The translations under genes were made by a program, and so were the position numbers. From the NCBI RefSeq assembly GCF_018760365.1, contig NZ_JAHIAB010000005.1, positions 248,001 through 312,000 on the forward strand: a DNA stretch of 64,000 nt, in the 5' to 3' direction. The notes beneath the pieces are model-generated. The model saw nothing but the letters and a program-made list of their open reading frames with translations, ran no database searches and was not told the origin of the DNA. Numbering within the stretch: position 1 is the stretch's first letter; every line of letters starts with the position of its first letter. This DNA is from Pseudooceanicola endophyticus (lineage in GTDB: Bacteria > Pseudomonadota > Alphaproteobacteria > Rhodobacterales > Rhodobacteraceae). Of this stretch, positions 5,581 to 42,265 are shown in pieces.

Positions 5581-5648
5581 ATCTTCCTTTTCTTGTTCCA
5601 AATACCTCGGGGGGGCCGGCGCCCTGCGCCGGCGGGGGCAGAGCCCCC
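5581..5648 (-). repeat. Tripartite hairpin-hairpin-core repeat, copy 1
   Basis: Read on the minus strand: hairpin A, GGGGGC-TCT-GCCCCC (5648-5634); hairpin B, GCCGGCGC-AGG-GCGCCGGC (5633-5615); then the core CCCCCGAGGTATTTGG followed by AACAAGAAAA. It lies between bcp and the DUF455 gene. The core runs directly into the DUF455 ribosome-binding site, and the hairpins could terminate bcp transcripts. Copies 2 and 3 are at 12870 and 26751. Confidence 0.85.
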
Positions 5649-12869: not shown

Positions 12870-12935
12870 GGGGGCGCTGCCCCCTCCCGGGCCCGCGGCC
12901 CGGTTCACCCCCGAGGTACTTGGGACAAGAAAATG
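12870..12935 (+). repeat. Tripartite hairpin-hairpin-core repeat, copy 2
   Basis: Hairpin A, GGGGGC-GCT-GCCCCC (12870-12884); hairpin B, CCGGGCC-CGC-GGCCCGG (12887-12903); then TTCA and the core CCCCCGAGGTACTTGG plus GACAAGAAAATG (12908-12935). It lies between the DUF924 gene and lpdA, both on the plus strand. Core differences from copies 1 and 3 are two transitions. Confidence 0.85.
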
Positions 12936-26535: not shown

Positions 26536-26621
26536 GTCCCGTGTCTCCTGCTAACGAACCTGTCGGTTAGATAGGGCAAAGAGGGACCCGGGGTAAGGGG
26601 GAATTCTGTTTTCTGCCAGTA

Positions 26622-26688
26622 TGTTAGCGAAAACATCACGGCGCTGCCCATGGTTGCGCTAACCTTGGCGCTGCCGGTGGCGCTAACT
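26622..26688. promoter_or_regulatory. Cluster of LacI-type (CceR-like) operator boxes before the gapB-like gene
   Basis: TGTTAGCGAAAACA (26622-26635) matches 12 of 14 positions of TGTTAGCGCTAACA; TGGTTGCGCTAACC (26651-26664) matches 11; CGGTGGCGCTAACT (26675-26688) matches 10. Centre-to-centre spacings are 29 and 24 bp. They lie 87-153 bp upstream of the start codon. Confidence 0.6.
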
Positions 26689-26750
26689 TGTGCTGCGCAG
26701 CAGCATCGGGTGTCTCGGACCCTGAGAATCGCCTGTCCGAAAGCGAGTCA

Positions 26751-26809
26751 GGGGGCTCCGCCCCCGGCTCCTGCGGAGCCTCCCCCGAGGTATTTGGAAC
26801 AAGAAAATG
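26751..26809 (+). repeat. Tripartite hairpin-hairpin-core repeat, copy 3
   Basis: Hairpin A, GGGGGC-TCC-GCCCCC (26751-26765); hairpin B, GGCTCC-TGC-GGAGCC (26766-26780); T; then the core CCCCCGAGGTATTTGG plus AACAAGAAAATG (26782-26809), identical to copy 1 over its first 26 bases. Unlike copies 1 and 2 it lies antisense to both neighbouring genes. Confidence 0.85.
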
Positions 26810-26862
26810 TCCAGGACGGGACCCGGCTCTTTCATCTGGCCACAAATATCCCCGCCGGAGGC

Positions 26863-26901
26863 TTTGCCCGAAGGGCAAAAGGGCCGGCGCATGGCCGGCC
26901 C
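26863..26901 (-). terminator. Intrinsic terminator of tkt with a second hairpin
   Basis: On the minus strand GGGCCGGC (26901-26894) pairs with GCCGGCCC (26888-26881), followed by TTTT. A second stem TTTGCCC-GAA-GGGCAAA follows directly. Confidence 0.88.
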
Positions 26902-34833: not shown

Positions 34834-34862
34834 AAAAAAAAGGCCGGACACAAGGTCCGGCC
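34834..34862 (-). terminator. Strong intrinsic terminator, minus strand
   Basis: An 8-bp perfect stem with 5-nt loop followed by T8, the best terminator in the window. It lies 213 bp past the LysR stop, so it may serve the candidate sRNA, the LysR mRNA or both. Confidence 0.92.
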
Positions 34863-34916
34863 AGGTCCAACAGGGAGGTATGAAGATGATGTGCCGCAAG
34901 GCAGCATCACCGTCGA
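34834..34916 (-). ncRNA. Candidate small RNA with anti-Shine-Dalgarno loop and U8 terminator
   Basis: On the minus strand a plausible promoter, TTGATC (34950-34945), 16-bp spacer, ATATTT (34928-34923), would start transcription near 34916. The predicted ~83-nt RNA has a stem-loop (34908-34888: GATG-C-TGCC, loop TTGC, GGCACATC), a single-stranded stretch with ACCTCCC (around 34878-34873), and a terminator GGCCGGAC-CTTGT-GTCCGGCC (34862-34842) followed by eight T (34841-34834). This is the usual layout of a trans-acting sRNA. The ends are inferred; no family was recognised. Confidence 0.5.
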
Positions 34917-42240: not shown

Positions 42241-42265
42241 CGCGCATATTTGGGGAAAGATGAAA
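42241..42265 (+). repeat. Divergent core-only relative of the tripartite repeat
   Basis: CGCGCATATTTGGGG plus AAAGATGAAA resembles the repeat core (GAGGTATTTGGAACAAGAAAA) in the TATTTGG block and A-rich tail. It follows a terminator hairpin directly, as the core does in full copies, but the GGGGGC-N3-GCCCCC hairpin is missing. A 10-bp direct repeat CGGCGAATTG at 42361 and 42381 lies further downstream. Confidence 0.45.

Follow-up and report, generated by a model that had tools for sequence, protein, structure and literature searches.

REP sequences are described, in the sections of the source drawn on here, as short, high-copy extragenic palindromes that occur in inverted pairs and as hybrids and are species-specific in sequence (PMC2817692). 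The CIR elements of Caulobacter and other alphaproteobacteria are, according to the corresponding sections of their description, intergenic inverted repeats of ~110 bp that contain GANTC in many copies and are highly conserved between species (PMC2229807). The main text of Cozzuto 2008 (PMC2267715) contains no mention of Rhodobacter, Silicibacter, Paracoccus or Caulobacter.

The window analyzed here, a stretch of DNA 64,000 nucleotides in length, carries a real, widespread, and structurally constrained extragenic repeat, which has a REP-like habit in a genome without a REP enzyme. The original prediction described three copies, each containing hairpin A, hairpin B, and a shared core. Upon re-reading of the coordinates, all three copies and both of their hairpins were found in place (Table 1), as was the core, with the qualification that copy 2 has TACTT instead of TATTT. 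A search of the window for the 22-base core with at most three mismatches found only 5588-5609 (minus strand), 12912-12933 (plus strand, two mismatches), and 26786-26807 (plus strand), compared to a mean of 0.00 matches in 100 shuffled windows. The list of three was nevertheless incomplete, as it had missed a gamma core that is paired with copy 3 in inverted orientation. The core-only relative predicted near 42241 is present and belongs to a separate core type, beta; the hairpin that precedes it is terminator-like by eye and was not flagged by the terminator scan. No published name for the repeat was found in the literature searched, which was mostly without subscription papers, and a literature search by sequence fragments returned no related paper by title.

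Copy 2 represents a sub-type in which hairpin B is preceded by TC and followed by TTCA (TC-TTGG...CCAA-TTCA, 12885-12907); this sub-type recurs in several genomes. Elsewhere in the window, positions 34836-34890 (minus strand) match the SorX sRNA at 54.3 bits, above the Rfam gathering score. SorX RNA is linked to Rhodobacter, and the best plasmid matches for tkt come from Pseudorhodobacter, Paracoccus, and Cereibacter, at 69-73% identity; both results point to a host within the Rhodobacteraceae in the broad sense. Repeated TTAGCG and CGCTAA boxes at 26620-26690, between tkt and gap, resemble operators bound by a regulator and occur, as judged by eye, at the same place in several genus-mates.

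Table 1. Components of the repeat in the window, with coordinates and the basis of each assignment
Feature	Position	Strand	Basis
Copy 1 hairpin A, GGGGGC-TCT-GCCCCC	5634..5648	-	sequence
Copy 1 hairpin B, 8 bp, 3-nt loop	5615..5633	-	sequence
Copy 1 C-run 2, GAGG, TATTT, alpha tail	5588..5614	-	sequence, core search
Copy 2 hairpin A	12870..12884	+	sequence
Copy 2 hairpin B, 7 bp; then TTCA linker 12904-12907	12887..12903	+	sequence
Copy 2 C-run 2, GAGG, TACTT variant, alpha tail	12908..12935	+	sequence, core search
Copy 3 hairpin A	26751..26765	+	sequence and fold
Copy 3 hairpin B, 6 bp, TGC loop (opposite strand: GCA)	26766..26780	+	sequence and fold
Copy 3 C-run 2, GAGG, TATTT, alpha tail	26782..26809	+	sequence, core search
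Gamma core plus type-II head (GCCTCCGGCG); paired with copy 3 in inverted orientation	26830..26862	-	sequence
Variable hairpin beside this gamma core	26863-26879		
Gamma core itself, without head	26830-26848	-	
Beta core, no recognized head, between ccmE and ccmF	42247..42265	+	sequence

A modular repeat in high copy number

The host genome of the window (G000; 5.2 Mb, 46 contigs) contains 326 cores that match a joint core pattern, with no match for the control. Further copies in the same genome, which the original prediction anticipated, are abundant as exact matches as well: 46 of the alpha core, one of which (C2:182414) is a chance match by eye, 109 of the beta core, and 127 of the gamma core, all with control counts of 0. 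The hairpin A pattern (GGGGCNCYGCCCC) matched 211 times, compared to 15 times for the reversed pattern. Merged stretches of this genome amounting to 353 kb, mostly around matches, provided a sample of 130 cores (55 alpha, 39 beta, and 36 gamma). The type-I head consists of hairpin A, the variable hairpin B, and a second run of C residues (C-run 2), then TATTT, while the type-II head is often a variable hairpin followed by GCCTCCGGCG. Both types combine with all three cores in these stretches. The repeat is thus not the single fixed tripartite unit first proposed; it is modular, with a head of type I or II joined to TATTTNN and a tail, and two heads and three cores are present in this genome. 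A simple head rule assigned 70 of the 130 cores to type I, 35 to type II, and 25 to neither; inspection by eye indicated that several of the last group are oddly spaced type-I heads and that others have no clear head.

Contigs C4 (190 kb), C5 (157 kb), and C6 contain few cores and the chromosome-like contigs many; among the cores listed, C4 has one beta and one gamma, C5 one beta, and C6 none. These three contigs may be extrachromosomal.

Gene positions were taken from 390 gene calls in the same stretches (86.5% coding), and each of the eight called window genes tested with Pfam matched a family. The repeat is intergenic for 128 of the 130 sampled cores. When both neighbors of an intergenic core were called (126 cases), the genes were convergent in 59, tandem on the same strand as the element in 31, tandem on the opposite strand in 25, and divergent in 11. 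Convergent gaps represent 54 of the 217 called gaps of at least 60 nt in these stretches, which were picked around elements, so that the comparison does not amount to one with randomly chosen gaps. Between tandem genes the element has no strand preference (31 vs. 25). Thirty of the 130 cores are arranged as 15 facing pairs whose TATTT sequences start 52-72 nt apart (six alpha/beta, four alpha/gamma, four gamma/gamma, and one alpha/alpha). Where the downstream gene opposes the element, its stop codon lies 19-36 nt from the first TATTT base, just past the tail, in 30 of 85 cases. Polarity with respect to the replichore was considered and rejected: the 20 copies listed for genome G181, all on contig C1, are on the plus strand, and 16 further C1 stretches yielded three minus and two plus copies.

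Paired arms and coupled positions in the head

Hairpin B was analyzed in the 75 type-I copies of the host genome that contain TATTT, a set that excludes window copy 2. The complementarity of its arms was borne out, with at least four consecutive pairs in 74 copies, at least five in 71, and at least six in 60; the sole exception has lost hairpin B. The stem averages 6.3 bp, compared to 2.6 bp in shuffles, and in 64 of the 75 copies its observed length was reached by at most two of 200 shuffles. The 74 hairpins comprise 47 distinct stems, the commonest of which (GTCTCC) occurs in 15, and arms swapped between copies pair in 48% of cases, as determined with a slightly larger own set that includes a few mis-cut segments. 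Loops had been thought always to consist of three bases, which is true of 60 of the 74 hairpins and of 174 of 233 in a wider set that includes them.

The covariation check suggested at the outset was carried out on 33 equal-length family sequences, in which 98.2% of structure cells are paired, compared to 82.6% after shuffling. Covariation of the named structure was 0.363; shuffled sequences gave 0.086, and no slid control exceeded 0.161. Pair types were no more numerous than in shuffles, 274 of 500 of which reached the observed value. Hairpin A is invariant among these sequences and hence uninformative on structure there. All six pairs of hairpin B show changes on both sides, with one position unpaired in six of the 33 sequences, and its changes are thus compensated. 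Conserved structure over changing sequence, the central claim of the original prediction, is strongly supported by hairpin B pairing, the covariation count, and the couplings described below. Selection, which had been inferred directly from this pattern, is the likely cause of the matched arms and not the sole possible one, as they could also be maintained if one arm were copied from the other during replication.

Two couplings within the type-I head are well supported and are new relative to the earlier description. The first connects the middle base of the hairpin A loop with R, the first base after C-run 2. It was tested in 152 sequences from 23 genomes, 150 of them among the matches listed for 21 genomes and two from elsewhere, using a search pattern that constrained neither base. 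The two bases were C-G in 131 sequences and T-A in 21, with no exception, and seven of the 23 genomes contain both types (within-genome permutation p about 5e-10, with copies treated as independent). Both types are found with each of the trinucleotides that follow R (GAG, GGA, and AAG), and the change in coupling therefore probably arose in several contexts. The 75 own copies include 74 C-G and one T-G, and 46 other loci, a set that overlaps the 152, include 40 C-G and six T-A; all 33 equal-length sequences are coupled (31 C-G and two T-A). The second coupling involves run lengths. C-run 1, in hairpin A, is equal in length to C-run 2 in 132 of the 152 sequences; the corresponding counts are 65 of 75 own copies (48.7 after permutation) and 40 of 46 others (23.8). 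The G-run and C-run 1 are of equal length in 56 of 75 (39.8 permuted) and 34 of 46 (21.8 permuted), respectively.

The type-I pattern also matches 27 contigs of the IMG/VR viral collection (L342-L368), many of them 10-15 kb in length, and one matching sequence, found in both L351 and L367, is not element-like. The contigs of this length may be gene-transfer-agent clusters or chromosomal flanks. Of the 28 type-I matches, on contigs that may share organisms with the genomes studied here, 24 are coupled (19 C-G and five T-A), the exceptions being a T-G, an A-A, and the un-element-like sequence, which is G-A and is present twice; the C-runs are equal in 25.

The loop-R pair spans hairpin B and crosses hairpin A instead of nesting with it. 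Hairpin B directly abuts C-run 1 in most copies and is followed by a short linker, and a run as long as the stem could then extend from the base of hairpin A up to the loop, which leads to the proposal of a docked third run. Pseudoknot and triple-helix folds have this character, in that a run is laid along a hairpin and makes contact with its loop, and the two couplings together suggest a single-strand fold that would be pseudoknotted or triple-helix-like. The loop-R coupling (152 of 152) also involves a base that would not be part of any stem copied by template switching; this observation and the GNA loop preference presented below argue that it is very unlikely that the fold is unselected, with template switching in replication maintaining its palindromes and either slippage or an alternative stem of the G-run and C-run 2 keeping its runs equal. 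Such an origin would be consistent with the scarcity of intermediates, i.e., eight internal non-Watson-Crick pairs among 1347, and with window copy 1, for which the minimum-energy prediction, whichever strand is folded, is a longer stem between the G-run and C-run 2. The DNA folding energies of the window copies represent only a modest gain over shuffles (z -0.94 to -1.95).

The original prediction described the fold on one strand, and the complement of that strand now appears more probable as its bearer. Triloops of hairpin B conform to GNA in 115 of 174 cases on the complement and in four on the described strand, and tetraloops conform to GNRA in nine of 52 cases and in none, respectively; GNA triloops are known to confer extra stability on DNA. 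With low-score hairpins excluded, the internal non-Watson-Crick pairs on the described strand comprise six A.C or C.A, two T.C or C.T, and no G.T. An A.C mismatch on that strand corresponds to G.T on the complement, so that the mismatches favor the complement as the folding strand. The complement is therefore probably the strand that folds, judging from this loop preference and from six mismatches (sign test about 0.03, by hand), while the lone T-G coupling exception among the own copies would be a wobble on the described strand and points the opposite way.

DNA is tentatively preferred over RNA as the folding molecule because there is no orientation bias. The balanced orientation in tandem gene pairs likewise makes it rather unlikely that the repeat is an RNA element of mRNA 3' ends, which would protect these ends, set a nuclease end, or assist termination, and which could explain the strong structural covariation, the frequent proximity of cores to stop codons (30 of 85 opposing genes), and the restriction of GNRA tetraloops to one strand. 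Other features also weigh against such a role. The tkt pair is located beyond a terminator-like T-run hairpin in several species (by eye; the window scan did not flag it), hairpin B lacks a direct T-run, and Rfam recognized only SorX in the window, returning two matches far below the gathering score at copy 3.

Taxonomic range, tail sequences, and shared sites

Of 198 genomes sampled within the same GTDB family, 129 contain the type-I head (control 0), and the exact pattern was absent from 69. A class search matched two of 289 genomes, both in the same family; outside the family none of 285 class genomes contained the type-I head, and the reversed control matched once, in one outside genome. 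A loose pattern found no element in three 50-kb segments from replicons of Paracoccus and Pseudorhodobacter, and a strict one found none in stretches of G014 and G008. The exact alpha tail had 13 matches in the GTDB 220 genomes, a collection from which near relatives may be missing, and all of these were in unrelated taxa.

The core tail, originally considered to be conserved, differs from genome to genome. Among 21 genus-mates, a fixed set of tails was found in at least 31 copies in 13 genomes and in zero to five copies in eight, two of which are <80% complete. Four of these eight (G003, G010, G016, and G017) carry the head with other tails. The six copies found in 80 kb of G016 all share GCCTGGTGATG, and those of G010 are alike but variable, with one of six quite different.

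Orthologous sites were surveyed by eye at 18 loci, over the first 260 nt past the stop codon. At the tkt site, an inverted pair is present in G000, G003, G016, and G010, the other genomes having tails that differ from those of G000, and single or partial elements are present in G017, G012, G006, and G009; none was seen at the other ten loci in this interval. Hairpin B at this site differs among genomes and pairs wherever it is present. G005 and G008 share an element pair at the same place, with 93% identity over a 250-base element region. At the DUF924 site (copy 2), only G000 has the element among the 11 of 18 loci that retain the frame, the seven frameless loci having been dropped. At the bcp site (copy 1; 17 loci), G015 carries an element oriented the other way, G017 has one without hairpin B, and G010 and G016 have G/C-rich hairpins. 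Tails therefore differ between genomes while some sites are kept between related species, and the combination of shared sites with changed tails indicates that some sites were inherited and that tails were rewritten over longer times. Site conservation at tkt and in G005 and G008 shows slow turnover, not active hopping. With regard to MITEs, which have terminal inverted repeats and a target-site duplication, inverted pairs are present here, and no insertion with a clean empty counterpart and a target duplication was found at the tkt, DUF924, bcp, or G005/G008 sites.

Conserved sites might be expected if the repeat were a DNA site for an architectural or regulatory protein, such as a nucleoid protein, gyrase, or a CcrM-linked factor, and were selected in place. 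Convergent gene pairs flank 59 of the 126 cores, compared to 54 of 217 gaps of at least 60 nt in stretches chosen around elements, and 38 of the 75 own type-I copies have GANTC, the CcrM site, in the segment that separates hairpin B from C-run 2, compared to 0.83 GANTC per kb overall; both observations would fit such a site. We consider it unlikely, however, given that GANTC is found in only 35 of 143 family sequences, that the presence of the element varies within the genus (whole or partial at eight of 18 tkt loci, at most 260 nt past the stop), and that different tails at one site are difficult to reconcile with a conserved protein site.

Proposed mechanism and comparison with known systems

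The explanation that is tentatively favored is that of a REP-like extragenic element that folds as single-stranded DNA, is restricted to the family in the genomes searched, and is read by a trans-acting protein. The three-dimensional shape is a model, and we infer it as well as the folding strand and the existence of a reader. The head would fold as a single strand, probably the complement and probably as single-stranded DNA opened by replication or repair. Hairpin B would stack below hairpin A, the second run would lie along hairpin A, and the base after the run would pair with the loop. A trans-acting protein other than a Y1 transposase would read the fold and the tail and would spread or rewrite copies, and these would be retained at positions tolerant of insertion, namely the 3' ends of genes. 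The lack of a mobilizing enzyme, as sought in one transposase family and one genome, counts against this explanation. The Y1 transposase (PF01797) had no match at E 0.001 in G000, which is rated 100% complete, in a search whose control was positive in five of 14 genomes, and it was rejected as the driver in this genome. Three pairs of alpha cores 0.5-1.7 kb apart were examined as possible cassettes, and the proteins called there (by eye LysR-type, Nudix-type, hemC, hemE, and others) give no hint of a mobile gene.

A more specific and more doubtful proposal is that the element represents a family-wide natural tertiary fold of single-stranded DNA, in which hairpins A and B would be stacked, the third run, of equal length, would be docked as a G.G-C triple helix on the complement, a Watson-Crick pair between the loop and the end of the run would form a cap, and the tail would be a fast-changing address for a non-Y1 enzyme. 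A C+.G-C triple run is unfavorable at neutral pH; the G.G-C version on the complement avoids this problem and is the candidate geometry. If the fold is real, a large bacterial family has preserved a tertiary structure at hundreds of places between genes, one that covariation revealed in unannotated DNA, and it would follow that a RAYT is not required for short extragenic repeats to spread or persist. The model predicts that one base pair links the hairpin loop to the base beyond the second hairpin.

The element differs from an intrinsic terminator in that a linker, C-run 2, and four bases separate hairpin B from TATTT, with no direct T-run, and in that its orientation is independent of the upstream gene. 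DNA uptake sequences exist as genome-specific dialects and are often inverted at gene ends and also found within genes; the element resembles them in its genome-specific tail and inverted pairs and differs in being intergenic for nearly all cores (128 of 130). Known natural RNA triple helices are mostly U.A-U, whereas the run of the element consists of C, or of G on the complement. As compared by description, using the sections of the CIR source noted above, CIRs are similar in their intergenic location, inverted-repeat structure, and GANTC, and differ from the element, whose tail changes between genomes and whose GANTC is optional. Likeness to the REP/RAYT system lies in the short palindromes, the high copy number, the extragenic location, the partial arrangement in inverted pairs, the occurrence of hybrids, and the species-specific sequence. 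REPs have a GT(A/G)G head, whereas neither GTAG nor GTGG follows C-run 2 in any of 143 sequences, the four bases there being GGGA in 58, GGAG in 46, AGAG in 11, GAAG in eight, and others in the remainder. In further contrast to REPs, the element conserves the sequence of hairpin A and not that of hairpin B, and it adds a coupling between a hairpin loop and the tract that follows.
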